A stretch of 31,043 nt of DNA. It comes from a virus. The stretch is from IMG/VR virus record IMGVR_UViG_3300020469_003694, positions 1 to 31,043 of that record; one strand, written 5' to 3'. The notes below the pieces were generated by a model, which worked only from the letters and a program-made list of their open reading frames with translations, did no database searches and was not told where the DNA came from. A program made the translations under genes and the position numbers. This document shows, piece after piece, positions 6,138 through 31,043 of the stretch. Position 1 is the stretch's first letter. Every line of letters begins with the position of its first letter.

Positions 6138-6871
6138 TATAACGTATCCAGTTTATCCCACCATTCACTATTTTTTAAATCATTTAGTTCTTCTGGTGTT
6201 CCCATACCAATCATTTTTTCTACACGAAATATTCCAACGTCTTCTTCTAAATAATTGTAAGTAGGTGCTAAGTAAAATTCGTTATTAGTTCTATCGTTTA
6301 CAGCCATCTGTTTTTCATGCGCCTTGATCCATTTTACCTCATCACTAAAATAATAGACGCCGACAGTAGCAAGACTACCTATGATTTCTTTTTCTTTAAG
6401 TTGAAGTAATTTATCATACGCATCGACATCAACATAACTGTGTTTAGGTTCTTCATGGTCAGGAATAAAAACTGGTATAAGACCGCCTGGATAAAGATCG
6501 TGTTCAATTATCTTATAAAATTTTTCGTTATTCCATACCATAAGTTGATCACAGTTTGCAACGATCATAGGTTCTCCACCAAACATGGAAGTCGCCAACC
6601 TTACAGTGCAGGCCGCGCCTTCAGTAAGACCGGGCGCTACAATAATGTTTGCGTTATCATAATATGATTTTATTATCTTATCAATTTCATACAGATCGAC
6701 ATGATCTTTTCTTACGATACAATTTAACTGAACGTCATCACCTAATCTTAAGTTGTCAACCACACGCTTAAACATAGGTTTGCCGTTAATGTCTATTAGA
6801 GGCTTAGGTAAAATATATCCATCATCAAAAAAACGTTGGCCGTTTCCAGCCATCGGTAGTATCACTTTCAT
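6137..6871 (-). CDS. Sugar-phosphate nucleotidyltransferase
   Basis: This is the classical NTP-transferase (PF00483-type) N-terminus: MKVILPMAGNGQRF followed by PKPLIDINGKPM, which bind the nucleotide phosphates and the sugar phosphate. IVANCDQL at about residues 102-109 carries the catalytic Asp. At 244 residues it matches the short glucose-1-phosphate-type enzymes. It should activate a sugar phosphate to an NDP-sugar for the surrounding transferases. Base specificity cannot be read by eye. It lies directly downstream of the RuBisCO-like gene with an ATGA overlap, so the RuBisCO-like product may feed it. Confidence 0.8.
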   Translation of the reverse strand: MKVILPMAGNGQRFFDDGYILPKPLIDINGKPMFKRVVDNLRLGDDVQLNCIVRKDHVDLYEIDKIIKSYYDNANIIVAPGLTEGAACTVRLATSMFGGEPMIVANCDQLMVWNNEKFYKIIEHDLYPGGLIPVFIPDHEEPKHSYVDVDAYDKLLQLKEKEIIGSLATVGVYYFSDEVKWIKAHEKQMAVNDRTNNEFYLAPTYNYLEEDVGIFRVEKMIGMGTPEELNDLKNSEWWDKLDTL

Positions 6872-8010
6872 GTGTCCATAGCCTTTCTCATTTCTTGAAC
6901 TTTCTTAATTAAACTATCGCCGGTGTGTAACCAGCCACCAACAGACGCCATAAAATTAGTGCCAATTCTTTCTCTTATTTCTCTTGCTAAGACTGGATTC
7001 ATACCACAACTTAACGAAGGTATGACATTGTATTTTGTACACATGTCTATCGCTTCTAAAGTTTCTTCTTCACTCTCACCTTCAGGATAGTAGCCACCTA
7101 ACATTCCAACATGCATACTATCTACACCAGCTAAACATCCTAACTTAGCGAGCACTGGCCAAGCTATCGAATATTTGTTACTTGGATCTGTAAGAATTCT
7201 TATTCCAGATCTTTGGTAATGCGTGGCGATATCAAATCCTCTTGCTGCAGTATATGCACCTAGGCCTGACCAAAAGTTAATATGGCATCCACCTACAACA
7301 TTATCTGAACATGTATAATAGTGTATAATTTTAATATTTTTTACTAACTCAAGTGGATCAGCATTTATACAGTATGCAAAATATCCTTTCCAACTAGATA
7401 TAGCTTTTAAATGTTCTACAGCTTCGACTCTTTTTTCTAGTGGCAAGTAAAGATTTTGAGCCATGATTTCATCTTCTTTAATGAAATCTGCTCCGCCATA
7501 AATCATACATTTTACGATCTCCATGTATTGTTCCATGTTCAGTCCTGATTTAGGTTTTATAATTGCGCCAAAAAGAGGACGATGCTCTGCATCTAAACGA
7601 TCTTTCCAGCCTGATAATCCTTGAACTGGTTTCATATAATCTACATCTATATCAATATCAATAACTCTGCACTTATCAACACCGATAATATCAGTATGAC
7701 CTCCCATCATAATACACATTAATTGATTTATATTTGGCCATATAAATGCGCTTTTTGGAAATTCTATCTTGACTATATCACCTTCAACTGATTTAATTTG
7801 AGCTTGGTACCTTTTAATGTTTGGCGCATTTTCAATTTCAGACCTGATGTTAGGATTTCCTATGCTTTGGCCAATTGCAATCTCATGTGCAATCTTTGGA
7901 ATATCTGGACCATCAACTTCATATGTGACGGTATATGTTTTCATCGGCTCAATAACCTGAGGTGGCTGCCATGTGTTAGTGACTGGTATATCAAAAGGGT
8001 TTGTGCTCAT
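6868..8010 (-). CDS. RuBisCO-like protein (form IV type)
   Basis: This 380-residue protein is homologous to the RuBisCO large subunit. IIKPKSGL (residues 150-157) holds equivalents of K175 and K177. DFIKEDE (175-181) keeps the carbamylated Lys (K178) and both acidic Mg ligands. H300 matches H327. The loop-6 lysine needed for carboxylation is replaced (K334 to Y307, in VGMLGGYYPEG). E60, T65 and W66 are also changed (IGQSIGNP), while LSCG (333-336) and VGG (357-359) retain much of the phosphate site. It should therefore enolise or isomerise a sugar phosphate rather than fix CO2. It lies between a sugar nucleotidyltransferase and a methyltransferase with ATGA overlaps, implying a role in making an unusual sugar. 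Known form IV enzymes serve methionine salvage and related pathways. Confidence 0.85.
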   Translation of the reverse strand: MSTNPFDIPVTNTWQPPQVIEPMKTYTVTYEVDGPDIPKIAHEIAIGQSIGNPNIRSEIENAPNIKRYQAQIKSVEGDIVKIEFPKSAFIWPNINQLMCIMMGGHTDIIGVDKCRVIDIDIDVDYMKPVQGLSGWKDRLDAEHRPLFGAIIKPKSGLNMEQYMEIVKCMIYGGADFIKEDEIMAQNLYLPLEKRVEAVEHLKAISSWKGYFAYCINADPLELVKNIKIIHYYTCSDNVVGGCHINFWSGLGAYTAARGFDIATHYQRSGIRILTDPSNKYSIAWPVLAKLGCLAGVDSMHVGMLGGYYPEGESEEETLEAIDMCTKYNVIPSLSCGMNPVLAREIRERIGTNFMASVGGWLHTGDSLIKKVQEMRKAMDT

Positions 8011-8627
8011 ATTCTTATCTCGTATTGTGTCATTCCATGTCTAAACATGTTTGTTAATTTATTTTTATTTATAAACTCATTGACTGCCTTGGTAACACCA
8101 GGCTTTTGCCATTTCGCATCTGGCCAACCATAGTCATCACCTATAATTAAACCACCAGCCTTAACAACCTGCAAAGAATTTTCTAAATCTTTAAGGCAGC
8201 CTTCATAAGAGTGGTCTCCATCTACGTAAATCCAGTCTAGCATCTCATCGTTGCCATGACCTTTAGATACGAGATACTGTTCGAACCATTCGTCTGACGT
8301 CATCCTACATATTTCAACTTCGCTATAAGTTCTAAATCTTTCTTTTATTTCAGCATAAACTCTATCGTAAAAAGTTTGAAATCCTGCTGGTGCGATTTCA
8401 CCAGTAATAGGCTGATATTTTGCAAGATACTCTTGATAACTCATTTCACTATTATCTTTGTAAGGTTCTATAGAATAAGCATCGACCATATAAAGTTTTT
8501 TTATCTTATTCTTTAGAAATAAAGTTGATGTATTACCCATCCAAACACCAATTTCTGCGCCTACAGTATCTGGCTTTATTAAGTGTGTAATGTTTCTTGA
8601 ATCTTTATTTGTATGAGTTGCCATCAT
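8007..8627 (-). CDS. Class I SAM-dependent methyltransferase (Methyltransf_24 type)
   Basis: The 206-residue protein has a full SAM-binding core: VGAEIGVWMGNTS (motif I, residues about 22-34), LYMVDAYS (motif II), and LDWIYVDGDHSYEGCLKDL, the VDGxHxYxxxxxD signature of this family. AGGLIIGDDYGWP follows. Such enzymes O-methylate sugars in bacterial surface polysaccharides. Unlike the methyltransferase-like protein at 4988-5413, this one looks intact. It precedes the RuBisCO-like gene with an ATGA overlap, suggesting a shared product. Start: two ATGs in a row; the first is used. Confidence 0.75.
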   Translation of the reverse strand: MMATHTNKDSRNITHLIKPDTVGAEIGVWMGNTSTLFLKNKIKKLYMVDAYSIEPYKDNSEMSYQEYLAKYQPITGEIAPAGFQTFYDRVYAEIKERFRTYSEVEICRMTSDEWFEQYLVSKGHGNDEMLDWIYVDGDHSYEGCLKDLENSLQVVKAGGLIIGDDYGWPDAKWQKPGVTKAVNEFINKNKLTNMFRHGMTQYEIRI

Positions 8628-8632
8628 GATAA

Positions 8633-9403
8633 TTATACCTTAAAATATTTACTTCCATTGCTAATTGCTCTTACTAAGTGGTGAGACCTATATGAACCCG
8701 GACTGTCATATATATGTATGTCTTCATAATTCATATATAATTGAGCTACATGCATCATACCAGAATCACTACCAACATGAAACTTTGCATTTGCCATTGC
8801 TAATCCAATGTGTGGTATTGAACTCTTTAATAATCCTTTACCTTCGCCACCTACGTATAATGCTGGACATCCATACTTATCATGTATTTCTTTTCTCATT
8901 GCTTCTGGTATCGTTCTTTGTGAATCAGTAGAATCCCACTGTACAGTAATAAATTCATCTGGCAACCAACCATTATCAACAATAGGTTTTAACTTAGGTG
9001 ACTCTTTTATATATTGTGACATTTCAATACCGACACGAGTCTCGTTAGGATGCATATGAATTGTATCTGCGTAGTGATAAATGTATGCGTCATATCCTTC
9101 AGATTTTAAATATTTAATCCAATCAACTTCTGATAAGTTTTCTACAGGATGTGGCTCTAAGTATAATGTATCAGAAGGAAACAAGGACAGTATTTCTATC
9201 CAAGATTTTTTCTTTTTACCTGATGGCTTACCACCAGCAATACTCCATTTATCATCAGTGATATGTATCGTAACAGGTGAGTTATGAGCTTTTCCATATT
9301 GATATGCAATCATAGCACTATGAACTCTATCACCTAGACCCGGTGTAGTGTATGGCCTGTCACCACTTCTTACACTTTTTGATCTTAATGCGATGTGTTT
9401 CAA
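8633..9403 (-). CDS. Heptosyltransferase-like (GT9-type) glycosyltransferase
   Basis: The 256-residue protein has the GT-B pattern of GT9 enzymes. An N-terminal TPGLGDRVHSAMIAYQYGKA resembles the GDxL-type acceptor loop. The C-terminal HVGSDSGMMHVAQLY is close to the DSGxMHLA donor-phosphate motif. It is shorter than typical heptosyltransferases (about 320-350 residues). It probably adds a sugar to an LPS-core-like acceptor. It sits in a chain of overlapping glycan genes; its stop lies six bases from the next start. Confidence 0.65.
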   Translation of the reverse strand: MKHIALRSKSVRSGDRPYTTPGLGDRVHSAMIAYQYGKAHNSPVTIHITDDKWSIAGGKPSGKKKKSWIEILSLFPSDTLYLEPHPVENLSEVDWIKYLKSEGYDAYIYHYADTIHMHPNETRVGIEMSQYIKESPKLKPIVDNGWLPDEFITVQWDSTDSQRTIPEAMRKEIHDKYGCPALYVGGEGKGLLKSSIPHIGLAMANAKFHVGSDSGMMHVAQLYMNYEDIHIYDSPGSYRSHHLVRAISNGSKYFKV

Positions 9404-14898: not shown

Positions 14899-15129
14899 TT
14901 AATTGAACTTTTTTTGATCTTTTTTCATTTTTTGTCGTAATGACCATAATATCCAATCATAGTATCGTTCTGGTTCCGGATCATCATCAACTAATCTACG
15001 TTCAGTTTCACCAAAATTTCTTTCATATACAGTTTTACCACCATCTGGCGATTCATATATTTTCTTAGGCTCATCCGGTAATGTTACATGATCACCAGTT
15101 CCGGCCATGTCTTGAGTGTACTTATTCAT
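14899..15129 (-). CDS. 76-residue conserved marine phage protein
   Basis: The protein contains KKIYESPDGGKTVYERNFGETERRLV, a pattern I associate with small hypothetical proteins of T4-like marine phages. It ends with aromatic and basic residues (YYDWILWSLRQKMKK). It overlaps the thyX stop by 8 bases and is the last gene of the uvsX unit. Function unknown. Confidence 0.6.
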   Translation of the reverse strand: MNKYTQDMAGTGDHVTLPDEPKKIYESPDGGKTVYERNFGETERRLVDDDPEPERYYDWILWSLRQKMKKDQKKFN

Positions 15130-15820
15130 GCATGTCTCCTATCATTGGAAATATTTTAGATATGGCTTCAGCACAGGCTCTTGCGACGTCTATGCATTCT
15201 TTTTGTGTACCATTACTTGAACGTAGTTCTATGAAATGAATCCAACTTCTTATTGTACCATTCATATAAAGTCTTGATGAAGTCAATCCTTCAGGTAAAA
15301 CTTTACGTGCAAGTTCTTTAGCGATACCATTATCAACTGCAAACTGATAAGCTTTCTTTGCAGCGATTACAACTTCGCTTTGTGCCTTCATCCAATCTAA
15401 TGATAATGCAGCTTTCTCATCGCTGTCAGTAATTTCAATACTATTTTGTCTATTCTTATCGTCTTGTAATCTGCATTCTGTAGTTACTCTTATATCCAAT
15501 TCTTTAAGAGGATCTGCATATCTTTGACTAAACTCTTGAAAACTAAAACTTCGATGTCTTAGTATCTGTCTTGCAATATCTCTTGTAGTATTAATCTCAA
15601 TACAAGCACTTGCCATCTCGAATGGTGACCAGTGCTGATGCTTAATTAAATAGTTCAATAACTTAGCATTAGTAGCATTACTGGATTGTCCTGATGGATT
15701 AGAAACTCTTGCACAGTATGCTATAAGATCTTCACACCCTTTTGGAGGATCAATATAATCATCATAAGTTTTAAATTCAGATGGTTTACTATATGAAATT
15801 AACTTTGCTGACATTTCCAT
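15122..15820 (-). CDS. thyX: Flavin-dependent thymidylate synthase ThyX
   Basis: The 232-residue protein carries the diagnostic ThyX motif RHRSFSFQEFSQRY at residues 88-101. Upstream are IAYCARVSNP and HWSPFEMA, and SSRLYMNGTIRSWIHF lies toward the C-terminus. The enzyme makes dTMP from dUMP using methylene-tetrahydrofolate, FAD and NADPH as a tetramer. Marine T4-like phages use it instead of the T4 td (ThyA) enzyme. The start overlaps the upstream stop (TAATG). With the dCMP deaminase at 23463, it completes a dCMP-to-dTMP route. Confidence 0.95.
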   Translation of the reverse strand: MEMSAKLISYSKPSEFKTYDDYIDPPKGCEDLIAYCARVSNPSGQSSNATNAKLLNYLIKHQHWSPFEMASACIEINTTRDIARQILRHRSFSFQEFSQRYADPLKELDIRVTTECRLQDDKNRQNSIEITDSDEKAALSLDWMKAQSEVVIAAKKAYQFAVDNGIAKELARKVLPEGLTSSRLYMNGTIRSWIHFIELRSSNGTQKECIDVARACAEAISKIFPMIGDMHE

Positions 15821-19052: not shown

Positions 19053-19081
19053 ATTATACCATAAAAGCATCTAATTGTACA
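19053..19081 (-). promoter_or_regulatory. Early-type promoter P5 embedded in the end of the dcm gene
   Basis: On the minus strand TGTACA (19081-19076) and TATAAT (19058-19053) are 17 bases apart with a TGG extended -10. The -35 box lies in the codons for Ser-Val-Gln of the methyltransferase, and its TAA stop (19056-19054) is part of the -10 box. It drives uvsX, the helicase and thyX. Confidence 0.88.
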
Positions 19082-20253
19082 CTACTTTTTTCAAAATTTA
19101 ACTTATGATTAGTATTATCTTGAATTAAAAAATCTGTATCTAGCATTTGATTATCTAATCTGCCGTCAACAAATTTTTCTACATGAGTTGCCATGTCTTC
19201 TGCAGTAGTGACAGGTACATTTTGGCAAATATGATTTAAATTTTTAAGACCACCTTGTAACATAAAGTCATTAGGTAGTTTCATTATTGATAGACACTCT
19301 CTTATCGTAAGATATCTGTCTTCATCAGGATGCGTTAAGTTTTTTGGCATATGTCCTACAAAAGCACCTATAGAGTTTTTTGGAAAGTGGCACACTTTTC
19401 TCATAATGTTACCACCTTCAGAAAGTTTCTTGTGTATCGCATTGCATCTTTCAGATATTTTTGTAAATCCTTGTGACATCATCCATTTGGCAACATCTTT
19501 ATAGTTACCGCCATTCCATTCTATGTAGTCCATAGCATTTTGTGACCTACTAATTTTAGTATCTTGAAACTCTTTATGAGTTATACCACCACACATTTCT
19601 TCAAGTACGTATCTATAATAAGGGTTTTTAGAAGGTATATCATAATTAGTAGGTTTGTCCATAGGATCGTTAGGTTTTGATTTTACGGAACGAATAGTAT
19701 CTTCTATCTTTTCATGTTCTCTTTTTATAAAATCAAATTGAGGAATCTTTTCACCTTGCCAGAAGAAATAAAAAGTTCTATTTCTTACTTGTCCCAACCC
19801 ATGTAGGATAGACTTCGTTTTATATATAGAGAAAGTATATCCAAACTTTTTACCAATTTTTCTGAGTTTTGTGACAACTGGTCTGCCGATGTTTGAAGCA
19901 AGTCCTGGTGCATTTTCGCCCCAGAATACTTGAGGTTTGAGTGTACCCAAAACAAAATTAGAAGTGGTAAGCATCCAATCGTTAGCAGCAGCATCGCTGC
20001 TAGCTGTAGGACTAAGACTACTAAGACCGGCACATGGGCAAACAGTATTAATAACCTCGACACTAGGTAAATCAGGTACCCCATTATCTCCATAAAGATG
20101 ATAGGGAACTGTTCCTTTATAATATTCAACCAAGTGATTATCGTTTCCTTTGAAATCGTCATAGCTTAATATATATTCCGGTTTGCGATTCAACACATTT
20201 TGCATCGCGATTGTGGCACCTCCAATAAGAGGAACTATACTTGCATATTTCAT
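19054..20253 (-). CDS. DNA C5-cytosine methyltransferase with variant PCA motif
   Basis: The 399-residue protein has the C5-methyltransferase motifs in order. Motif I is SIVPLIGGATIAM, motif IV CPCAGLSS with the likely nucleophile C74, motif VI ENAPG (113-117) and motif VIII QVRNRTF (155-161). A C-terminal QNVPVTTAEDMATHV corresponds to motif X. The usual PPCQGFS is CPCAGLS, so the conserved Gln is Ala. It transfers a methyl group to cytosine C5, but in a phage that probably contains hydroxymethylcytosine the true substrate is open. Host DNA, residual cytosine or a sugar-modification step are all possible. It overlaps the epimerase gene by one base. Confidence 0.85.
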   Translation of the reverse strand: MKYASIVPLIGGATIAMQNVLNRKPEYILSYDDFKGNDNHLVEYYKGTVPYHLYGDNGVPDLPSVEVINTVCPCAGLSSLSPTASSDAAANDWMLTTSNFVLGTLKPQVFWGENAPGLASNIGRPVVTKLRKIGKKFGYTFSIYKTKSILHGLGQVRNRTFYFFWQGEKIPQFDFIKREHEKIEDTIRSVKSKPNDPMDKPTNYDIPSKNPYYRYVLEEMCGGITHKEFQDTKISRSQNAMDYIEWNGGNYKDVAKWMMSQGFTKISERCNAIHKKLSEGGNIMRKVCHFPKNSIGAFVGHMPKNLTHPDEDRYLTIRECLSIMKLPNDFMLQGGLKNLNHICQNVPVTTAEDMATHVEKFVDGRLDNQMLDTDFLIQDNTNHKLNFEKSSVQLDAFMV

Positions 20254-21002
20254 TAGTGCGGTACCGTATTTTTAACAATGTACTCATCAACTTTTACCTT
20301 TGGTTCCCATCCTAATTCTTTCATTGCAGTAATATCTGCAGTATTATCTTGTGCTTCACAAGGATCACCATCTTTTATTTCAATGCCTTCCCATCCTGCT
20401 ATAGCGCCTAAATCTTTTACGACGTTACCGTTACCTGTCCCTATGTCGTACGCTGGTTTTAAAGTTTTAATATCTTTTGACATTAATAAAACTATTCCAT
20501 CGACTACATCACTAACATGAACAAAATCTCTTACGTGTCTTGTTAGGTATTCGATACGGCCATCGATTAACTTTCCTATGAGCATAGATTCTCTAGCACC
20601 ATCACCATAGACAGTAGTAAATCTTAATCCAACTTGACCTGGAAAAGCAGTTTCTTCATTTACTTTTTTACTTGTACCGTATGGTGATAACCACCAATTA
20701 TGTATACAAGAAGATGAAGCATATAATAAAGGAATATCATTATATGTACATATTTTTTGTATATGAGTAGTATTTTCTACGTTATTTTTCCAGTAAATAT
20801 CAGGTTCTTGTAAACTTTTTCTCACATCTGCGTATGCAGCAAGATGAATACAATAGTCTATATTATCTGCTTTAAAATCTCTTATACATTTTGGAGGATC
20901 TTGTCTTAAATCCCATTCAATTATTTCATGACCATCATTTTCAAGTCTTGTTTTAAGATGACCACCAATAAAACCTCTTGATCCAGTTATTGCTATTTTC
21001 AT
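20253..21002 (-). CDS. NAD-dependent nucleotide-sugar epimerase/dehydratase (extended SDR)
   Basis: The 249-residue protein has the NAD loop GSRGFIGG (7-14), CIHLAAYADV, the serine strand LLYASSSCI, and catalytic YGTSK (Y108, K112). RDFVHVSDVV follows, as in GalE-type enzymes. It is shorter than E. coli GalE (338). It should interconvert or oxidise a UDP-hexose; UDP-glucose to UDP-galactose is attractive because the next gene is a UDP-galactopyranose mutase. ATGA overlap with glf supports joint production. Confidence 0.82.
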   Translation of the reverse strand: MKIAITGSRGFIGGHLKTRLENDGHEIIEWDLRQDPPKCIRDFKADNIDYCIHLAAYADVRKSLQEPDIYWKNNVENTTHIQKICTYNDIPLLYASSSCIHNWWLSPYGTSKKVNEETAFPGQVGLRFTTVYGDGARESMLIGKLIDGRIEYLTRHVRDFVHVSDVVDGIVLLMSKDIKTLKPAYDIGTGNGNVVKDLGAIAGWEGIEIKDGDPCEAQDNTADITAMKELGWEPKVKVDEYIVKNTVPH

Positions 21003-22009
21003 TTATTATTCTCCAAAAATTTTTCTGATGTTACTAATGCTGAATTGATTGCTTGATGCATATCTACATAGACATACATGCCACAACGACCAATAAATGT
21101 CATGTTCGAGCGAATAAGTTTTTTATACTGTTCGTATTTTTTTCTATTCTCGCCGTTAACATCTTTTACTGGATAATACCTTTGAAAATCGTTTACCATA
21201 TAGTCACAAGGTTCTTCATAGGTTAGTGTTGTATACTGGTTATTTATGCCATGACATGGAAGGTTCTTCCATTCTGTGACTCTTGTATATGGACCGTCAT
21301 GTGTAAAGTTTACTGTGCCAGTTGGCAATACTTTATTCATAGGTAAATCTACATGATGAAACTTAATTGAACGATATGGCAAAGTGCCATATACAAAATT
21401 AAAGTAATCATCTATCGGCATGGCGTTAAATACATGATCAAAATCTTTTTCCATATTTCTACTAAATCTTAACTCTAGATCTACTTTAATATTTTTTTGG
21501 TCTAAGATTAATTCGAATATTCTTGTATAACCATTTTTTGGTAAAACTTGATATGCATCATTAGGAAAGTAATATTCGTTATCATCGTCTCTTACTGGTA
21601 CTCTTTTAAGAATTGATGGATCAAGTTCTTCTATCGTTTTACCCCACATCTTGTATGTATATGGTGCAAAGAAAGTATCAATAATATTTTCTTTACCTAC
21701 GATATCTTTTGTTTCTTTATTAACTGGTAAAGTGACGTACCTTCCATCATCGAGTTGTGCTTTGACTTTATGCTTGTACGGTACCCATTCATCAAACTGC
21801 GTAACCCAGTTATATACTTTCTCATTGTTTGTATGAAATAAATGTGGACCATACTTATGCACTCGAATGCCTTTTTTATTTGTATAATCATAAGCGTTAC
21901 CACCTATATGATTTCTTTCATCTATGACGTGTATGTCATGACCAGCTTTTGCCAATTGATGCGCTATGACTGCACCTGAAAAACCTGCACCTACTACTAA
22001 TATTTTCAT
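20999..22009 (-). CDS. glf: UDP-galactopyranose mutase
   Basis: The 336-residue flavoprotein starts with the FAD-binding ILVVGAGFSGAVIA and has HIGGNAYDYTN and HKYGPHLFHTNNEKVYNW, the signature of Glf. YKMWGKTIEELDPSIL and a late FIGRCGMYVYVDMHQAI complete the family pattern. It converts UDP-galactopyranose to UDP-galactofuranose. Length is slightly under the bacterial enzyme (about 367). It lies between the epimerase and a GT-B transferase, all with ATGA overlaps, so the furanose sugar is probably used by that transferase. Related mutases act on UDP-arabinopyranose, which is an alternative substrate. Confidence 0.9.
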   Translation of the reverse strand: MKILVVGAGFSGAVIAHQLAKAGHDIHVIDERNHIGGNAYDYTNKKGIRVHKYGPHLFHTNNEKVYNWVTQFDEWVPYKHKVKAQLDDGRYVTLPVNKETKDIVGKENIIDTFFAPYTYKMWGKTIEELDPSILKRVPVRDDDNEYYFPNDAYQVLPKNGYTRIFELILDQKNIKVDLELRFSRNMEKDFDHVFNAMPIDDYFNFVYGTLPYRSIKFHHVDLPMNKVLPTGTVNFTHDGPYTRVTEWKNLPCHGINNQYTTLTYEEPCDYMVNDFQRYYPVKDVNGENRKKYEQYKKLIRSNMTFIGRCGMYVYVDMHQAINSALVTSEKFLENNK

Positions 22010-23121
22010 ATGTTTAAAGCTTTCTTCAATTCATTTTTTTGTATATTTTTATTTAACGGATGTTTAATATATATCGACTTTTTTTGGAGTTCAGCTAGAT
22101 CTTGTAGTTGTTGTACACTCATATCTTTAAGATGCGATGCTTTTACTGATGCCGCTTCTTCATTACCATATAATACCATAAGCTCTTCATAATCGCCAAT
22201 CAAAATTGAACCGGCATCAGCAACCTGTAATGGTCTCGCTCTCCACCAGCCTGAACCTGAATGTTCATATCCTGGCATTAAACAACCCCATTGTTCTGAA
22301 TAAACTTTGCACATATCTCCTTCACCAAGTCTTCTTTGATTGTCTTTACGAGAACCAAAGTATTCTATGTCCCATGGTACATCTTGCTTTTTCAACCAGC
22401 TTAATGTCTTACCATGTGCTAGTGATGCAAAGTTAAATTTCTTTTCTTTATTCTCTGGACTTACAAAGTCTTCTTCATAAGTCGGTTGTAGTTGTGCTTC
22501 TAAAAAGTTTAAGTTACTTAATTCTACGTCTCCTCTATCACCAGGTAATCTATTTCTATGATAAGGATTTGGATTATAGTTAAATAATTTATCTTCTGGA
22601 TATTCTGATCTTAAAAGTTTATTCATATCGCCGGTAGCAAATACGGATAATAATACAGGTGCTTCTTTTTTCGAAAGATAGTCGACTGCTTCTAATAAAT
22701 TATCAGTATATGGTTCTAAAAACTCTTTACTAATTTCAGGATCTGTAACATTCTGACCAATTAAAAAATCTTTAAGCAAGCCTTCTTTAGTGTTTGTTTT
22801 TTGTATATCTTTAAATATCCACGGACATTTCCAATCATCAAATGCTAATATCAGTTTGCTTTTGTCGATATTAAATATAGACCATAAACCATTATAAAAA
22901 GTTAATTGTAATCTTTGTGTAGGTGAAGCAAGAAAACAAATCACTCTATCATAATCAGATAAGTCTTCACCAACCTTTACGATCCTTTGCTCAACTTCGT
23001 GACCCATGTCTCTTAAACATCTTAACAAAGAATAATGTGATGGAACAACTCTTAATTGTTGTCTCATATAAAAGTTTTCTGTAACTTGGTTCTTATTCAT
23101 TCCTGTAACGAGTATCTTCAT
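22006..23121 (-). CDS. GT-B glycosyltransferase, T4 beta-glucosyltransferase-like (putative DNA glycosyltransferase)
   Basis: The 371-residue protein has a two-domain GT-B plan that parallels T4 beta-glucosyltransferase (351 residues). The parallels are LSDYDRVICFLAS near residue 55, then KSKLILAFDDWKCPWIF, a central WDIEYFGSRKDNQRR, WWRARPLQVADAGSILIGDYEEL for the donor site, and a helical end KNELKKALNI. The corresponding T4 segments are DYDRLIVV, IEFFGN and TLRVWETMASDAVMLID. It may place a sugar, perhaps galactofuranose from the adjacent Glf, on hydroxymethylcytosine in DNA. A cell-surface acceptor cannot be excluded. The similarity is from memory and should be tested structurally. Confidence 0.62.
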   Translation of the reverse strand: MKILVTGMNKNQVTENFYMRQQLRVVPSHYSLLRCLRDMGHEVEQRIVKVGEDLSDYDRVICFLASPTQRLQLTFYNGLWSIFNIDKSKLILAFDDWKCPWIFKDIQKTNTKEGLLKDFLIGQNVTDPEISKEFLEPYTDNLLEAVDYLSKKEAPVLLSVFATGDMNKLLRSEYPEDKLFNYNPNPYHRNRLPGDRGDVELSNLNFLEAQLQPTYEEDFVSPENKEKKFNFASLAHGKTLSWLKKQDVPWDIEYFGSRKDNQRRLGEGDMCKVYSEQWGCLMPGYEHSGSGWWRARPLQVADAGSILIGDYEELMVLYGNEEAASVKASHLKDMSVQQLQDLAELQKKSIYIKHPLNKNIQKNELKKALNI

Positions 23122-23124
23122 AAT

Positions 23125-23484
23125 TTATCCTTGTAAGTAGTTATAGCATTTACGTATCATAGTTTTTTCAAATTGCTTATCATTAAGTTGTCTGTTGCGT
23201 GGTGATGGATGCGGCATTTTAAAGTGTTCTACCCTTACTTTTTTTAATGAATCAGATGCGATATTACCAAGTGCAATAACTTTATTTGCTTCTTCGCATT
23301 TAACTAATTTGTCAAAGTCAATCGTAAACTTTTCACCAACATCATTACTGCAATTCATAAACTCAAAGTTAGTTAATCCCCATACGGTACACCAGTTTAA
23401 TAACCTATCAATAGTGTCGTTCTTCTTTGGTTTTTCTGCGCCTGAAGGATTTTGACCAACGATTATAACTTTATCCAATCCCAT
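23125..23484 (-). CDS. Small uracil-DNA glycosylase superfamily-like protein
   Basis: The 119-residue protein has IIVGQNPSG near the N-terminus, where UDGs have GxxPG. It has VIALGNIASDSL in the middle and MPHPSPRNRQLN near the end, matching the HPSxxN active-site motif. It lacks the four Fe-S cysteines of family 4 enzymes and is about half normal size, so it is a minimal or regulatory member. It lies between a putative DNA glycosyltransferase and dCMP deaminase, pointing to base modification or repair. Activity on uracil or another base is unproven. Confidence 0.6.
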   Translation of the reverse strand: MGLDKVIIVGQNPSGAEKPKKNDTIDRLLNWCTVWGLTNFEFMNCSNDVGEKFTIDFDKLVKCEEANKVIALGNIASDSLKKVRVEHFKMPHPSPRNRQLNDKQFEKTMIRKCYNYLQG

Positions 23485-23903
23485 ACTACACCTGCCTCTT
23501 TAAACATTGATATTGAACTTGATATTGATTCTTGCCAGTTTTCTGGTATCTCTTGTTCTGGAGTCACAACTCTGGTTATGCCAGCTTGAATTAATCCTTT
23601 TGCACAATCATGACATATTGGTAAACCTATTACATAGATTGTAGAACCTTTTAACGACACTCCATTTTCTGCTGCATTATAAATTGCATTCATTTCTGCA
23701 TGTACTATTCTTTTATATTTTATTGCTCTATTTAAATAATATAGTTCATGATCATCTACACCTCTAGGAAATCCATTATAACCTTGAGCTATAACAGTTC
23801 TATTTCTTACAGCAACTGAACCAACTTGTGTTGAAGGATCTTTTGACCACGTCGCTACAAGCTTTGCCATCTCTAAGAATCTGATATCCCATTTATTTGA
23901 CAA
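23463..23903 (-). CDS. cd: dCMP deaminase
   Basis: The zinc-dependent deaminase motifs are clear: HAEMNAIYNAA supplies one ligand and the catalytic Glu, and PICHDCAKGL supplies two Cys ligands. KDPSTQVGSVAV and GYNGFPRGV are typical of dCMP deaminases. The enzyme makes dUMP from dCMP for ThyX. I place the start at the TTG giving SNKWDIRFLEMAK, which matches the usual N-terminus of the family. The upstream ATG at 23927 adds nine residues and overlaps the hydroxymethylase gene further. It competes with the hydroxymethylase for dCMP. Confidence 0.9.
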   Translation of the reverse strand: MSNKWDIRFLEMAKLVATWSKDPSTQVGSVAVRNRTVIAQGYNGFPRGVDDHELYYLNRAIKYKRIVHAEMNAIYNAAENGVSLKGSTIYVIGLPICHDCAKGLIQAGITRVVTPEQEIPENWQESISSSISMFKEAGVVWDWIKL

Positions 23904-24573
23904 GATGAAAGTGCCTTTCGTAAACATGCAAGTTTTGTACTTGCCACATTATATCACCGCATGAAATTGGTTCTGTAATCTCACTTTTACATTGATTGTA
24001 ATCTTCGGCTAATTCTTCTAAAATAGAAAGCTGCCAAGCATAGTCATTCTTATATCCGAACACGACATCGTTTGAGCGCATTTGTACAACACAGTGTAGT
24101 TTATCATCGCGTATGTAATAAGTAACGGCATTAGTACATATGAAATCGCTCTTACCATTTTCATTATATTCCTCCCATATACTTGGACGATTGTAAATCA
24201 TTGATGCTCTACGACCATCAGGATTTTCTAATAACTCATCAAGAACTCTACCATATTGGTGATAGTATTTATCAGCAAATATTATCTGACCATAATTAGA
24301 ATTAATTTCACCATAATCATTTGCTGCATACTTCCAAGCTTCAGGTACTTTATCACCAATAGCATTTACGTTAGTGATTTGACTTTTGTACCACCGTAAT
24401 TCTTTTTTAATATATTCTTCATTAGGACTACCAAATATTGCAGGCTTATCAGCGTGAAAAGACGCACCAATAATTTCAATAGTTTTTTGACCAGTTCTAT
24501 CGGTAACAAACTTTTCATTAAGAAGTTTAGATTTAAATAAGTTCTTTATATCTTTAGTTTTAGTAGCCAACAT
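23893..24573 (-). CDS. 42: dCMP hydroxymethylase (T4 gp42 family)
   Basis: The 226-residue protein closely follows T4 gp42: TGQKTIEIIGASFHADKPAI, NSNYG, SDFICTN with the nucleophile C146, and QMRSNDVVFG. GYKNDYAW follows, where D177 replaces the Asn of thymidylate synthases and selects cytosine. It makes 5-hydroxymethyl-dCMP from dCMP and methylene-tetrahydrofolate. It ends at HVYERHFHLVK, about 20 residues before the T4 protein. The ATG at 24573 has GAGG 9 bases upstream; a longer frame to 24672 overlaps the previous gene. Its presence strongly suggests hydroxymethylcytosine in the phage DNA. Confidence 0.93.
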   Translation of the reverse strand: MLATKTKDIKNLFKSKLLNEKFVTDRTGQKTIEIIGASFHADKPAIFGSPNEEYIKKELRWYKSQITNVNAIGDKVPEAWKYAANDYGEINSNYGQIIFADKYYHQYGRVLDELLENPDGRRASMIYNRPSIWEEYNENGKSDFICTNAVTYYIRDDKLHCVVQMRSNDVVFGYKNDYAWQLSILEELAEDYNQCKSEITEPISCGDIMWQVQNLHVYERHFHLVK

Positions 24574-24913
24574 ATTTTTTATCCTCTTTAAGTGGATGAT
24601 CGGTTGGTTTATTATACATATCACGATCAGTTGTTTGACCGTCCATCTTACCACGCATGTATGATACTGCAAAAGAGCAATAGTTAATAATATCTTTATA
24701 AGTATCTTCTAATGATTCAAAGTTTGGATTACCATTACTTTCAAGTAACGACTGCGCACGATAGCACTTACCTTGAATAATATCATGGATGCTATCAACA
24801 CCACGACGATAATGCATTGCTTGAGTTACATTCGAATCTTTATTCTGATAATCATCAGACTTTTTATTCTGTAACTCAATACATTCTTTTAAAACTTTAA
24901 CCGATTCTTTCAA
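24560..24913 (-). CDS. DUF1599 / nucleotide modification associated domain 1 (Nmad1)-like protein
   Basis: The helical protein reads LKECIELQNKKSDDYQNKDS, then HDIIQGKCYRAQSLLE, and ESLEDTYKDIINYCSFAVSY. This matches the plan of DUF1599 proteins, called nucleotide modification associated domain 1: a K-x-DY motif, a K-xx-R helix and a DtxxDxxNY helix. The fold is related to all-alpha NTP pyrophosphatases. Its location directly upstream of dCMP hydroxymethylase fits. The best ribosome site (GGAG) serves a TTG at 24913; ATGs at 24919 and 24931 are alternatives. Confidence 0.6.
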   Translation of the reverse strand: MKESVKVLKECIELQNKKSDDYQNKDSNVTQAMHYRRGVDSIHDIIQGKCYRAQSLLESNGNPNFESLEDTYKDIINYCSFAVSYMRGKMDGQTTDRDMYNKPTDHPLKEDKKYVGY

Positions 24914-25142
24914 TTTCATCTCCATATACAAAATGTCTGTTATCTAGATCTATTATACAATAATCTATCATACTTGTAAACATTTTATTTACATTTATTC
25001 CACACTTAGACCAATGTCTTGGTTCAGGCATGAGCTCTATCTTTTTAATCTTACAAGCGCCAAACTTAGTTTCAACTAAATCACCTACGTAAATAATATT
25101 GTCAAACTTTACAACATCTTCGATTATTTCTTTTTTAGCCAT
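24897..25142 (-). CDS. 81-residue unknown protein, possible SH3-like fold
   Basis: The protein contains IIYVGDLVETKFGACKIKKI and DYCIIDLDNRHFVYGDEIERI. These two strand-rich segments could form a small SH3-like barrel. It abuts the upstream gene (stop and start share one base) and overlaps the Nmad1-like gene by a few codons. No family is recognised. Confidence 0.55.
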   Translation of the reverse strand: MAKKEIIEDVVKFDNIIYVGDLVETKFGACKIKKIELMPEPRHWSKCGINVNKMFTSMIDYCIIDLDNRHFVYGDEIERIG

Positions 25143-25853: not shown

Positions 25854-26783
25854 TTAAATATTTTTATATACATACTCAAGTGCACGATCAGCTTCTTTTT
25901 CTAATGGGCGTGACTTGTACCAGTTACCAGTTTCTACATCAAGTTCTCTACATAAATTAGTAATCTCTTGTGCAGTAATAGGATATTTGTTTTTAACTGC
26001 ATTACCAGCTGTTGCCACCATTATCTGATACATCTTATGATACCAACCTGTACTGCTTATCATTCTATATTCTTTTTCTAATTGCCTTGGAAAGAACGGA
26101 CAATTTTTATATGACGACCAGTTTATATTTGTATTATCAAGTTTAGATTTACGATGCTCGATAATTTCTTTTTGCATATCTTCTGGTAACCTATCAAAGA
26201 AATTATTACCATTAGACTTTTCTCGATAGGGATGTTTATTCATTAAGATATCAGGATCAAGATAATCCCCAGCACCACTAAAAATAAAATTATAAGCATT
26301 ACTATATTTTGCTGGTATATAATACATCCTAGAAAGGTCTTTGGTTTGCTTATCTCCCATATCTCCAAGGGTTGTTTGGAGAGAAAACCAAAAGTGTCGA
26401 ATTTTTTCAGCTTTGACTGTTTTGGTAAGCGGGAAGACAAGACGAAATTTAGGTACAGAATGTGTACTACTAGCAGTACTGTAACACACAAACCGAGTAC
26501 CAATAAACTTATTATCAATGGCGGCATGTAAATCTCCATTAAATTCAAAATCATCAACATCGACTGCACACCAAGCTGACCACATTGTAACGTTATCATT
26601 AGCACGTGTAGTGTTAGGCTTGTATTGTGCAGGTGACATTAAAGGTGCATCTTTCTTTGACTTCATAGCACGATTTGATAAGCCGTACAATGCTTTTTCA
26701 AAGCTATCAAAGTTTTCAAATGTTAGTTTTTGATTAGTCTTATTATCAAATATACTATTAAAAAGAGTCAGTGATATTTCCAT
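25854..26783 (-). CDS. AEP-type primase/primase-polymerase-like protein
   Basis: The 309-residue protein has the hallmarks of archaeo-eukaryotic primase domains of phages and plasmids. There is an acidic pair in CAVDVDDFE (D75, D77), then FVCYSTASSTHSVPKFRLVF with a Ser/His basic strand, and KDLSRMYYIPA (D149, R152). The C-terminal third is helical (ITAQEITNLCRELD) and may be a primase C-terminal domain. T4 uses the unrelated gp61 primase, so this could be a substitute working with gp41 helicase. AAGGA precedes the ATG; 26-base overlap with the upstream gene. Confidence 0.65.
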   Translation of the reverse strand: MEISLTLFNSIFDNKTNQKLTFENFDSFEKALYGLSNRAMKSKKDAPLMSPAQYKPNTTRANDNVTMWSAWCAVDVDDFEFNGDLHAAIDNKFIGTRFVCYSTASSTHSVPKFRLVFPLTKTVKAEKIRHFWFSLQTTLGDMGDKQTKDLSRMYYIPAKYSNAYNFIFSGAGDYLDPDILMNKHPYREKSNGNNFFDRLPEDMQKEIIEHRKSKLDNTNINWSSYKNCPFFPRQLEKEYRMISSTGWYHKMYQIMVATAGNAVKNKYPITAQEITNLCRELDVETGNWYKSRPLEKEADRALEYVYKNI

Positions 26784-27180
26784 GATTATCCTTATGTGAC
26801 GGACCTTTCCAATTTTCTGGCTTTACCAGATCTGGTAATCCTAGTGGATTAGGTCTACCTTCTTTTATTCCAACTTCTTTATTCATATTGGCTTTATATA
26901 CTTCATCCCATGCTTTATTAGCGTCAACACCAAATACTTCTAAAGTGCCAATAGCAAATACGCATAGATCAATAATACCATCAACAACTTCTTCAGCATC
27001 TTTGTTAACAAATGCATTTTGTGTTTCATCAAGTTCTTCTTGCATCATGTTAAGTCTAAATTGCATGTATTGATTAAATCTTTTAATATCTACATCACTT
27101 TGCTTTTCGGCTTGCACCCATTTGTTAACTCCATACTTTATATGCATGTCTTGCATGTCTTTAAACCAGTTTGTACTCAT
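26758..27180 (-). CDS. MazG-like all-alpha NTP pyrophosphatase (candidate dCTPase)
   Basis: The 140-residue protein has the EExxE...ExxD metal cluster of all-alpha NTP pyrophosphatases: QEELDET (E48, E49, E52), then DAEEVVDGIIDLCVF (E63, E64, D67, D71). KAWDEVYKANMNK helps bind the nucleotide. In T4 the dCTPase gp56 keeps cytosine out of DNA; here, beside dCMP hydroxymethylase genes, the same job is plausible but the fold is MazG-like. Its start overlaps the polymerase stop by ATGA. Confidence 0.72.
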   Translation of the reverse strand: MSTNWFKDMQDMHIKYGVNKWVQAEKQSDVDIKRFNQYMQFRLNMMQEELDETQNAFVNKDAEEVVDGIIDLCVFAIGTLEVFGVDANKAWDEVYKANMNKEVGIKEGRPNPLGLPDLVKPENWKGPSHKDNHGNITDSF

Positions 27181-29648
27181 ACGAAAAAATCCTCCAAGGT
27201 TGCTTGTTCTTCGGCAGTCCAGCCAATAGGGTTAAGTATTAGATTTAGTGGCTCGATAAAAGTCTTTTCGAACTGTAAATCATAGTTAATATAATTATGT
27301 AATTTTAATTCTTTAGGCAGCACGTCTTTAAATGCCACAACGTTTTGTTTTATTGAGTTTGGTAGTTTTAAATACACAAACTTTATTCTATCACCGTTTG
27401 TAATAAGTTCATACTTGTTATCTAGTTTATTTTGTTTTAAATAATAATTATGAAGTAGTGAACCACGTACATGTATTGGACAGCTTTTCTTAAATATAGT
27501 TTTTCTGTCTTGCCAATCAGTAATATTAGTAACTCTACGAGGAAATGCTACATCTTCTGGTTGCAAGTTTTTAAACTGTCCTTTAAATTCTGCAATGAAT
27601 CTTTGTGCTTCGCTTTCAGTGCCTGATATTATTAGTTTAAATGCTTCTTTAAATTTATTACGTACAACTTCTGGAGTAGAAGACTTAATAGCTTCAATAC
27701 CCATGATCTTAAGTTTTGGTTCTGCATATTGTACACCTTCATTATTATGTACGTTAAGTATATATCGTTTCTTTGCAGTCCAGATACCAATATCTGATAT
27801 TGCTTCTCTTGCCATAACCATTCTGTTTTTATATGCGTTATGCATTTTATAAAATTCTTCGTAAGCTTTGGCAATGGCCGGCTCAAAGTGTTCCTTACAA
27901 ATTTGGTCTAAGAATAAAACTGGATTATTTGGTGTAAATTTTTCTATAAGCGGACCAAAGTTAACATATAAAGAATCTGTATCTATAGCAATAACATAAT
28001 CTTCATCAGTCTTAAGTAACTTATTTAGTTCTTTATTCATAGTTTCTTGTGACCATTTGATTGCTTTTTGACCAGTAATTGTAACGCCTTCGGCAAGGCC
28101 TGTACTAAAATATAAGAAATGTTTATTTGCAAGAGCACCATATAAACTGTTAAGTAGAATCTTAATAGCCATTTGTCTGTTTTCTAGATTACTTATTTCT
28201 TTATCAAGTTCAAACGTATAACCTTTTTGCATCTGAGACTTAGCAGCTAACATCATACTTTTTATAGACACACGTTCATCATAATATTCTTCTATTATTT
28301 GTGGAAGTATACCTTGAAAGTCTTTACGATAATATGTTTCATTAGCAGCTCTTACAAATTTATTTGGATCATCAATATGTTTCATTCTTGTTTCTGGTGA
28401 CATATTGTTTTGAACTATGATGTTAGGATATAGAGAGTTTAAATCAAATGATACTACCCATTGGTATTTACCAGGAATTGGATCTTTAACGTAACCACCA
28501 GCTATATGACTTTTGTTATCTTGAATAATGTAATCATCTTCGACTTGTGTAAGTGGCGTAATAATGTTGTTTTGATATAGCTTTCTACAAATAATTGATT
28601 CCCATATTGCAGTTACGCCAAATGTGTCTTGATAGTTAACACCACCTTTGTACGCCATAGTAATGGCCAAAGTAATTAAACCAAGTTTTTCTTCAAGTCT
28701 ATCTACAAGTTGTACATCTTTCATATTATAATCAATGTACTTTTGATAATCATCTTTGTATAAGTTTTTAAGAGAACCTGATTCTTCATATGAAAGTTTC
28801 TTTTCACCAAGTACGACATAAGCAATATGATTTAATGCATATGATTCTTGAGGACCGTACGTATATCCAAACTTTTGAAATAATTCCATATAATCTAGTG
28901 TTTGAATACCTGGTATTTCATACACCATATTTTCTCTACCACGAGTTACAATAGGTCTTGGTGCTGGTATTTGTAAACCATAAGGAGAAAACTTGTGTAA
29001 TACTTCAATGCCTAATACTTTAGATGTACGATTAATAATATAAGGTATGTCAAAGAACCTAGTGTTCCAACCGGTTATAACATCGGGTATAATTTCTGGA
29101 TGTGACCAGAATTCTATGAACTTAGTAAGAAGCTCTTCTTCACTATTACATCGAGTGTATTTAACGTCGCTTATAAGCGCGGTCTTAGTATCAAAGTCGC
29201 CATAACCCCATACATGATATGTAGAGAACTTACTAGACTTATATGATATCGATAGTATCGTATGAGCAGCTTGATCAGGATATGGAAAGCCATCATCATA
29301 ATCTGTTTCGATATCGAAAGTGCCAACATTAATCATACTACGATCAAATTCGATGTCTTGCTGAAATTTATCCATAGCGTATTGTGTAATAAATCTTTTG
29401 TTACCATATATCTTACGACCAGAAACTTCAAGATTGTCTTTTAAATATTGTCCAGCCTCATACATACTATCTCTTTCAGTAGGTTCAACATAATTGCCGT
29501 CAATACTTTTATAAGAAGTTGGTGTATTAGAAGTTATATAAAATCTAGGTTTGTAATGTTCTTTTTTAATAACTCTATCGCCGTTGTTTGAATAACCGCG
29601 ATAGAAGATATTATTTTTAAACCGATATAGGTTTGTGTAGAATGCCAT
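27177..29648 (-). CDS. 43: Family B DNA polymerase (T4 gp43 type)
   Basis: The 823-residue enzyme has an N-terminal gp43-like domain and the 3'-5' exonuclease. Exo I is FDIETD (111-116), Exo II DVITGWNTRFFDIPY (189-203) and Exo III YNMKDVQL (307-314). The polymerase has motif A FDLNSLYPNI (401-410), motif B NRQMAIKILLNSLYGA (490-505) and motif C IDTDSLY (555-561). The C-terminus ends TLEDFFV, probably the clamp-binding tail. T4 gp43 has 898 residues; marine T4-like versions are nearer this length. It is the phage replicase, coupled to the pyrophosphatase gene. Confidence 0.96.
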   Translation of the reverse strand: MAFYTNLYRFKNNIFYRGYSNNGDRVIKKEHYKPRFYITSNTPTSYKSIDGNYVEPTERDSMYEAGQYLKDNLEVSGRKIYGNKRFITQYAMDKFQQDIEFDRSMINVGTFDIETDYDDGFPYPDQAAHTILSISYKSSKFSTYHVWGYGDFDTKTALISDVKYTRCNSEEELLTKFIEFWSHPEIIPDVITGWNTRFFDIPYIINRTSKVLGIEVLHKFSPYGLQIPAPRPIVTRGRENMVYEIPGIQTLDYMELFQKFGYTYGPQESYALNHIAYVVLGEKKLSYEESGSLKNLYKDDYQKYIDYNMKDVQLVDRLEEKLGLITLAITMAYKGGVNYQDTFGVTAIWESIICRKLYQNNIITPLTQVEDDYIIQDNKSHIAGGYVKDPIPGKYQWVVSFDLNSLYPNIIVQNNMSPETRMKHIDDPNKFVRAANETYYRKDFQGILPQIIEEYYDERVSIKSMMLAAKSQMQKGYTFELDKEISNLENRQMAIKILLNSLYGALANKHFLYFSTGLAEGVTITGQKAIKWSQETMNKELNKLLKTDEDYVIAIDTDSLYVNFGPLIEKFTPNNPVLFLDQICKEHFEPAIAKAYEEFYKMHNAYKNRMVMAREAISDIGIWTAKKRYILNVHNNEGVQYAEPKLKIMGIEAIKSSTPEVVRNKFKEAFKLIISGTESEAQRFIAEFKGQFKNLQPEDVAFPRRVTNITDWQDRKTIFKKSCPIHVRGSLLHNYYLKQNKLDNKYELITNGDRIKFVYLKLPNSIKQNVVAFKDVLPKELKLHNYINYDLQFEKTFIEPLNLILNPIGWTAEEQATLEDFFV

Positions 29649-29916: not shown

Positions 29917-30222
29917 TTAAACAGCGAATGATTCTCCGCAACCACATTGCGCGGTAGCGTTAGGGTTTATAACCTTAAGATAAGAGCCGCCGAACTCTTC
30001 TACATAATCTACTGTACAACCAATGACAAACATCTCTGCAGTTTTATCTAAGAGTAAAATGTTTTCTATTAGTGTACCTTTTTCTAAGTTGTTAGTCATG
30101 TTCCATTCATACTGGAAACCAGAACAGCCACCACCATTGACTGCGAGATAAGCATACTTCTTATCATGTGCTTTGGTGGTGGTGCTTAAGTAGTTTTTAG
30201 CATTTTCTGTTAAAGTTATCAT
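29917..30222 (-). CDS. A-type iron-sulfur carrier protein (IscA/ErpA/HesB family)
   Basis: The 101-residue protein is a complete A-type carrier. The three conserved cysteines are C33 in NGGGCSGFQYEW and C93 and C95 in QCGCGESF. A-type proteins hand Fe-S clusters to target enzymes. They are known in marine T4-like phages, where they may support clusters in host or phage enzymes during infection. The ATG overlaps the stop of the BMP-type gene (ATGA), so the two are co-translated. Confidence 0.92.
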   Translation of the reverse strand: MITLTENAKNYLSTTTKAHDKKYAYLAVNGGGCSGFQYEWNMTNNLEKGTLIENILLLDKTAEMFVIGCTVDYVEEFGGSYLKVINPNATAQCGCGESFAV

Positions 30223-31043
30223 TCTGGTAATGAAGCATCTATTCCTTTAACATATTTATTCATGCCTAGTAGTTCTCCAACAGAGTATTTACCATTAAAT
30301 GGATCAATTTCTCCGTTCATAACTTTCTTTTCGATATCTTTAGCGATAAGAGCAATGTTGTCTGGCATGTTAGTATACGGTGCCATCTTTACCATTCCAC
30401 TCTTCATATCACCCCAAGTATCTGTCTTCTTCCAAGAACCGTCCATAACTTGTCCAACTCTCTTAATGTAATATGGAGCCCAGTCATCAATTATAGCTGT
30501 AAGCTGTGCCTTAGGAGCAAACTGATACATGTTACTTGCCTGTCCAAATGCATATACACCTTGCTTTTCAGCAACTTGTAGTGCAGCGGGGCTGTCAGTA
30601 TGTTGCGTAATAATATCAGCACCTTCACTAATTAGAACCTTAGCAGCATTACCTTCTTTAACTGGATCATACCAGCTGTTAACCCATATGACATCAATGT
30701 CAAAGTCAGGATTTACACTCTTTGCACCTAAGTAAAAAGAATTGATACCTCTCACAACTTCAGGTATTGGAAATGAAGCAATGTAACCTGCCTTACCAGA
30801 TTTACTCATATGACCTGCAATTACTCCTTGAACATATCTACCTTGATAAAACATTCCAGAATAAACTGACATGTTATCATTTGTCTTATAACCTGTAGCA
30901 TGCTCAAATTTTATATTTGGAAACTCTTTAGCAACTTTCAACATTGGTTCCATGTAACCAAATGATGTAGCAAATATAATGTCCATACCTTCATTAGCTA
31001 AACCTCTTATAGCTCTTTCAGCATCTGGACCATATTTAACACT
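30219..31043 (-). CDS. BMP-family ABC transporter solute-binding protein (5' end outside window)
   Basis: The frame is open to the window edge, giving 274 residues of the C-terminal part. The residues before the first Met (YGPDAERAIRGLANEG) continue the family pattern. Further motifs are IIFATSFGYMEPM, MFYQGRYVQGVIAGHM, YIASFPIPEVVRGIN, VIWVNSWYDP, ADIITQHTDSPAALQVAE, and WGDMKSGMV. BMP/PnrA proteins bind purine nucleosides or similar ligands in the periplasm and pass them to an ABC transporter. The N-terminal 50-60 residues with the signal peptide would lie beyond the edge. In a phage this is an auxiliary gene, probably taken from a host. Confidence 0.88.
   Translation of the reverse strand, partial: SVKYGPDAERAIRGLANEGMDIIFATSFGYMEPMLKVAKEFPNIKFEHATGYKTNDNMSVYSGMFYQGRYVQGVIAGHMSKSGKAGYIASFPIPEVVRGINSFYLGAKSVNPDFDIDVIWVNSWYDPVKEGNAAKVLISEGADIITQHTDSPAALQVAEKQGVYAFGQASNMYQFAPKAQLTAIIDDWAPYYIKRVGQVMDGSWKKTDTWGDMKSGMVKMAPYTNMPDNIALIAKDIEKKVMNGEIDPFNGKYSVGELLGMNKYVKGIDASLPE

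Follow-up and report, generated by a model that had tools for sequence, protein, structure and literature searches.

Predicted modification of cytosine in a marine T4-like phage

Which modified base would a marine T4-like phage carry when a gp42-like gene lies beside a dCMP deaminase gene among its replication genes, and does the modification end with hydroxymethylcytosine (hmC)? The DNA analysed here, referred to as the window, is a virus record of 31,043 bases that represents a fragment. The preliminary description had taken it for a marine T4-like phage, and the identity of its DNA polymerase to that of C48C1 (49.6%) and to those of cyanophages (45-47%) bears this out. The main genes of the window lie on the minus strand in the T4 replication order. 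The DNA polymerase gene (27177-29648) forms the high-coordinate end of the row and is followed by the genes for a MazG-like NTP pyrophosphohydrolase (26758-27180; Pfam PRA-PH, 43.5 bits) and a primase-like protein (25854), several small ORFs, and the gene for an Nmad1/DUF1599 protein of 123 aa (24560-24931; PF07659, 29.4 bits). Next come the genes for the gp42-like dCMP hydroxymethylase (226 aa, 23893-24573), a dCMP deaminase (154 aa, 23463-23927; PF00383 dCMP_cyt_deam_1, 76.6 bits), and a UDG-superfamily/DUF1643-like protein (119 aa, 23125-23484; Pfam UDG 27.3 bits, DUF1643 26.2 bits). They are followed by g371, which encodes a predicted beta-glucosyltransferase-like DNA glycosyltransferase of 371 aa (22006-23121), and by the genes for a UDP-galactopyranose mutase (UGM, GLF; 336 aa, 20999-22009), a short GalE-like nucleotide-sugar epimerase (249 aa, 20253-21002; Pfam Epimerase, 81.4 bits), and a C5-cytosine-methyltransferase-like protein (399 aa, 19054-20253; PF00145, 51.5 bits). 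UvsX (18004), a gp41-like helicase (16176), and the thymidylate synthase ThyX (15122-15820; Pfam Thy1, 142.3 bits) complete the row.

The interval 23463-24573, described earlier as a dCMP hydroxymethylase locus, consists of two minus-strand genes, those of the dCMP deaminase and the gp42-like protein, which overlap by 35 bases; the deaminase and Nmad1-like neighbours named in that description are indeed present. The gp42 start at 24573 is an ATG with AGAGG ahead of it, and a longer frame with a TTG start reaches 24672. All the way from gp42 to the gene of the methyltransferase-like protein, neighbouring ORFs share bases (4 in the case of UGM and g371) or are separated by a few, in an operon-like arrangement, of which the genes at 19054-23121 lie downstream of the interval described earlier.

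We infer a pathway in which gp42 would convert dCMP to 5-hydroxymethyl-dCMP, which would then be phosphorylated and incorporated by the phage polymerase. The GalE-like epimerase would convert UDP-Glc to UDP-Gal, UGM would convert UDP-Galp to UDP-Galf, and g371, with its predicted BGT fold, would transfer the sugar onto the hydroxyl of hmC in DNA. The decorated virion DNA would be shielded from host nucleases. The logic of this pathway would be that of T4 with a different sugar. We assign a probability of roughly 60% to the reading that the operon makes hmC and then decorates it with galactofuranose; the sugar could also be another hexose or a pentofuranose.

g371 is predicted to adopt the fold of T4 beta-glucosyltransferase

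Like bgt in T4, g371 lies after gene 42 and before uvsX. In T4, gene 42 is followed by the gene for beta-glucosyltransferase (BGT), segA, and uvsX; in the window, four genes fill the interval of bgt, namely g371 and those of UGM, the epimerase, and the methyltransferase-like protein. An AlphaFold (AF2) model of g371, computed with 45 relatives as input, has a mean pLDDT of 89.4 and a pTM of 0.88. A Foldseek search of this model against 350,542 PDB chains placed T4 BGT at ranks 1-3 and T4 AGT at rank 4. Alignment with BGT (1nzd) by VIA-align gave a Z of 17.4 with an rmsd of 3.9 Å over 299 residues, and other GT-B enzymes scored from 16.3 downward, so that the lead of BGT over generic GT-B enzymes is modest.

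At the sequence level, MAFFT aligned g371 colinearly with BGT over the N-terminal and the C-terminal part. The hhalign comparison gave a probability of 21.6 and covered the first 62 columns only, and this sequence-profile link was set aside as weak. A search of the PDB with the g371 sequence returned no match, and searches against Pfam (E 0.1) and NCBIfam assigned no family, with the PF09198 profile not matched. In PHROGs the protein falls into the unnamed phrog_14998, which is annotated as hypothetical. When the strands are matched by eye, the invariant FDDW motif of g371 (94-97) comes after the strand that matches in BGT and may hold the counterpart of the catalytic base Asp100, but the motif is out of register in the MAFFT alignment. 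By its modelled fold, g371 is classed as BGT-like, and it is not assigned to PF09198.

g371 is paired with a UDP-galactopyranose mutase

Homology clearly identifies the 336-aa protein as a UDP-galactopyranose mutase: it scores 172.9 bits against Pfam GLF (cut-off 26.3) and 251 bits against the solved UGM 3hdq, and reaches 277.3 bits against TIGR00031, below the cut-off of 303.75. The best NCBIfam match of the epimerase is galE, at 71.2 bits and below the cut-off. A scan with a g371 profile found 80 viral loci, and the 77 with a full-length g371 were counted. GLF accompanies g371 at 74 of these 77 loci and in all seven lineages defined at 60% identity, and gp42 does so at 58, the absences of partners falling mainly at contig ends. 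Seven of the 17 g371 records examined showed no visible gp42, all of them below 36 kb; long contigs with g371 and GLF and no gp42 nearby mostly carry a gp42-superfamily gene elsewhere.

The pairing extends to cultured phages, with g371 adjoining GLF in Erwinia phage FBB1, Aeromonas phage 25, and Actinomycetia phage DSL-LC01; tblastn returned 19 Aeromonas records in the g371 list and likewise 19 in the GLF list. In C48C1, three overlapping ORFs encode a Tet_JBP dioxygenase (62.6 bits), a g371 homologue, and GLF (L191, 2584-6031), while searches of C48C1 showed gp42 to be absent and found no C5 methyltransferase. TET enzymes are the other known route to hydroxymethylated bases, and the base in C48C1 may be hmC or hmU. 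As a separate feature of some g371 loci, a cytidylyltransferase-like gene (PF01467; L130, 4064-4486, and relatives) and a small gene, n18, lie just upstream of gp42 and perhaps provide a further sugar or alditol donor.

These neighbourhoods also bear on the sugar itself. g371 might place galactopyranose, arabinofuranose, or glucose on hmC, with UGM serving another donor or purpose; at two loci (L077 and L079) a g371-like protein is indeed found with UDP-glucose dehydrogenase replacing GLF, and distant g371 homologues sit with arabinose-5-phosphate isomerase. Because distant relatives of g371 lie in arabinose clusters or beside UDP-glucose dehydrogenase, the donor appears to vary within the family. 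Against a different sugar in the window, no other gene accompanies g371 across distant lineages as constantly as GLF does, and the epimerase is most GalE-like; we regard this alternative as unlikely, if worth keeping in view.

It is also conceivable that hmC is made while the three sugar-related proteins (GLF, the epimerase, and g371) produce a glycan of the cell surface, as in O-antigen remodelling, and do not modify DNA. UGM is usually a surface-polysaccharide enzyme, and a separate set of LPS-like genes occurs in the window (3655-9403). Pelagimyophage glycosyltransferases have been interpreted as LPS genes (PMC7029224), and a role in the cell wall has been given to the UGM of Agrobacterium phage Atu_ph04 (PMC6630229). 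This view is countered by the structural matches of g371, the best of which are DNA glucosyltransferases, by the location of the genes in a replication operon at the position of T4 bgt, by the presence of gp42 or a TET dioxygenase alongside them in unrelated phages, and by the other occupants of the same slot, which are DNA-modifying genes. A surface glycan is thus a rather improbable product, and galactofuranose on hmC is retained as the preferred reading of these genes.

The gp42-like protein is predicted to be a T4-type dCMP hydroxymethylase

The gp42-like protein matches T4 dCMP hydroxymethylase (1b49) in phmmer at 7e-71 and 241.6 bits, with the next group at 39 bits, and its identity is 51% to T4 gp42, 29% to the RB69 homologue, and 25% to E. 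coli ThyA. The catalytic Cys (C146) and the Asp (D177) named in the preliminary description are correct when residues are counted along the 226-aa protein, and they correspond to C148 and D179 of T4; E58 and W80, the counterparts of T4 E60 and W82, are kept as well. Both the nucleophile C146 and the specificity residue D177 are invariant among 46 marine sequences, and T4 E60, W82, N170, and Y218 are kept in the window and in 45 marine relatives. In the RB69 type, these four positions hold F, A, Q, and F, with the Cys and Asp retained, and the E60/W82 positions are F and A in three RB69-type sequences. The Asp had been read as the mark of a cytosine enzyme. This holds with respect to E. coli ThyA, which has Asn, but the Asp alone does not prove hmC, as RB69-type enzymes share it.

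Trees of gp42, computed without G009 (wrong frame) and very long branches, separate the RB69-type 5-hydroxy-dCMP group by a 100/100 branch. The phylogenetic check proposed earlier thus comes out for T4: T4 gp42 is a closer relative of the window protein than the thymidylate synthases or the 5-hydroxy-dCMP synthases are. The sequence marks the protein as a dCMP hydroxymethylase of the T4 type, as opposed to a thymidylate synthase, and hydroxymethyl-dCMP is its best-supported and likely product. In thymidylate synthase, the corresponding Glu and Trp are part of the folate-dependent one-carbon step. What favours hydroxymethyl-dCMP over 5-hydroxy-dCMP is the way the protein clusters, together with the conservation of E58 and W80.

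Production of 5-hydroxy-dCMP would place the sugar directly on 5-hydroxycytosine. In RB69 and its relatives, arabinosylated 5-hydroxycytosine arises through a 5-hydroxy-dCMP synthase of the same superfamily as gp42, a homologue with the same Cys and Asp (PMC13390438), and Shewanella phage Thanatos is a related case (PMC12838424). A distant g371 homologue also lies within the arabinose cluster of Morganella phage Rgz1. The clustering and the residues nevertheless disfavour such a product in the window: the identities (29% versus 51%) and the separate clade set RB69 apart, E58 and W80 are lost in its type, and the closest relatives of the window carry an alpha-glucosyltransferase whose T4 homologue has hmC as its substrate. 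We consider it very improbable. The reading of the protein as a thymidylate synthase in a phage with unmodified DNA, a label given to gp42 homologues by PHROGs and many GenBank records, is rejected as hardly tenable in view of the bit scores, the identities, D177 in place of the ThyA Asn, and ThyX elsewhere in the window, which covers dTMP, so that gp42 need not be a thymidylate synthase. With a predicted T4-type hydroxymethylase, the earlier proposal of an hmC genome stands insofar as hmC is likely to be made; it probably does not stand for the end product, as the sugar genes point to a further step beyond hmC.

gp42 is widespread in an uncultured phage group

Relatives of gp42 are encoded in 551 IMG/VR stretches matched by the scan. 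Most of the 80 gp42 loci that were fetched are syntenic, in the order Nmad1, gp42, dCMP deaminase, the UDG-like gene (at some loci), variable genes, epimerase, the methyltransferase-like gene (at some loci), and UvsX. The dCMP deaminase was found in 80 loci and the Nmad1 protein in 74. Matches of gp42 in cultured phages (n = 1228) are all below 60% identity and mainly enterobacterial. Synechococcus is not among the ten most frequent names in these 1228 matches, outside which each named genus accounts for at most 15; the polymerase, by comparison, matches 376 Synechococcus records. gp42 therefore looks rare in cultured T4-like cyanophages, as had been supposed. The further claim that the gene sets this phage apart applies in relation to cultured cyanophages but not more broadly, since the sequence matches and the syntenic operon place the phage in a common uncultured group. 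In a published survey, one group of pelagimyophages was described as having a dCMP deaminase as well as two thymidylate synthases (PMC7029224). The genes so described are perhaps those treated here, differently named.

Cassettes are exchanged beside a nearly constant gp42

Comparison of the relatives revealed at least five gene sets between the dCMP deaminase and UvsX genes. Cassette A, the type found in the window, contains g371 and GLF, and cassette B contains a T4-type alpha-glucosyltransferase (PF11440, 118.4 bits). Cassette C encodes an unknown protein, a cupin-like protein, and a nucleotidyltransferase; the structure model of its protein c11, with a pLDDT of 40.5, was too poor for use. 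Cassette D (L049, 11540-15617; L038, 11540-15354) encodes a protein resembling myo-inositol-phosphate synthase, one that contains the helical domain of 5-hmdU DNA kinase (PF18723, 39.7 bits), and one that is SGNH-like; lying next to gp42, this set hints at a hypermodification of hmC other than glycosylation. Cassette E (L051, L057, L070, and L073; for example L070, 1940-6584) lies downstream of gp42 and the dCMP deaminase gene and encodes an SGNH-like protein, a protein with a PLP-like fold, the unknown c8, a UDP-glucose dehydrogenase, and an epimerase. Protein c4 of cassettes D and E was considered as a BGT relative and rejected: the Pfam match is weak (E 0.11), and its GDSH and RHH motifs are more like those of an SGNH hydrolase.

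The cassette types require 16 changes on the gp42 tree, against a minimum of 6. The gp42 proteins of L022 (cassette A) and L021 (cassette B) are nearly identical, and the nearest relative of the window gp42, at 87%, belongs to a type B phage (L003). A DNA glucosyltransferase gene also lies directly after gp42 in CC31 and in Klebsiella phages. As judged from these gene contents, the predicted decorating genes are swapped and the base-making gp42 is retained. We hold it somewhat better than an even chance that marine T4-like phages and several unrelated phages have galactofuranosyl-hmC DNA, made by a BGT-like transferase and their own UGM, and that the slot after gp42 swaps whole galactofuranosyl, alpha-glucosyl, and kinase- and inositol-phosphate-synthase-like cassettes beside a nearly constant gp42.

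Supply of the modified nucleotide and remaining operon genes

The T4 gp1 hmdCMP kinase (PF21448) is present in T4, RB69, FBB1, and Aeromonas phage 25, and none was found in 12 viral contigs, which are possibly fragments. Neither MazG nor Nmad1 gave an alignment with the T4 gp56 profile, so orthology of either protein to gp56 is unsupported by profile comparison; MazG is a candidate for dCTP removal by function only. The dCMP deaminase would feed dUMP to ThyX.

The C5-methyltransferase-like protein is co-conserved with gp42, and its catalytic motifs (PC, EN, QxRxR, and QN) are all retained across 86 relatives. Such a gene is hard to square with full hydroxymethylation of cytosine, and it may act with partial replacement, on the other strand or at another time, or in a different C5 reaction. 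The UDG/DUF1643-like gene lies next to the dCMP deaminase gene in 53 loci, and its product could act on modified bases or uracil.

Comparison with known systems

The window resembles the gene 42/BGT operon of T4 (Tequatrovirus) in the type of gp42, in the order of polymerase, gene 42, glycosyltransferase, uvsX, and gene 41, and in the predicted fold of the transferase. It differs in adding UGM and an epimerase, whereas T4 uses host UDP-glucose alone, and in having an adjacent dCMP deaminase gene and a C5-methyltransferase-like gene, with the gp1 kinase and gp56 not found. The arabinosyl-5-hydroxycytosine clusters of Mosigvirus RB69 and Morganella phage Rgz1 likewise join a phage-made nucleotide sugar to a cytosine derivative, and Rgz1 shares a distant g371 homologue with the window, but their precursor enzyme is a 5-hydroxy-dCMP synthase with 26-29% identity to the window gp42.

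In phage clusters of a C5-methyltransferase, TET, and a glycosyltransferase, hmC is made and then decorated by the linked glycosyltransferase, as relayed from Pyle 2024 in PMC13216743. C48C1 resembles these clusters in combining TET with g371 and GLF; in the window, unlike in these clusters, hmC would be made at the nucleotide level by gp42, and the window proteins scanned include no TET homologue. Agrobacterium phage Atu_ph04 has a dCMP hydroxymethylase, UGM, and a GT1 glycosyltransferase, and its DNA is refractory to nine restriction enzymes (PMC6630229). It differs from the window in that its UGM does not lie beside gp42, and because tblastn detected no g371 homologue in Atu_ph04, this phage indirectly supports the gene combination and not the g371 transferase.

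Significance and further observations in the window

To our knowledge, furanose galactose has not been reported on DNA, and none was found in the literature searched. If the proposed decoration is correct, it would enlarge the set of known bases, allow Type IV restriction enzymes and base-excising defences to be challenged with a new sugar, and give phrog_14998 a function. The cassette swaps beside gp42 would allow the arms race between DNA-decorating sugars and the defences specific to them to be followed directly in marine phages, and the analysis suggests that DNA may be the target of some marine-phage glycosyltransferases and UGMs that have been labelled as LPS genes.

Two further genes of the window lie on the minus strand. 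A gene for a PnrA/BMP-like substrate-binding protein (30219-31043), truncated by the window end, adjoins the gene for an IscA-like protein, and both recur in relatives. The PnrA-like gene was uninformative as a guide to the host, the closest genomes being Cohnella and Paenibacillus at no more than 46%. At 6868-8010, within a cluster of nucleotidyltransferase, methyltransferase, and GT25 genes, lies a gene for a RuBisCO large-chain-like protein of 380 aa with IIKPK and GADFIKEDE motifs, whose best NCBIfam match is type III (108 bits, below the cut-off) and which scores 75 bits against a solved form III enzyme.
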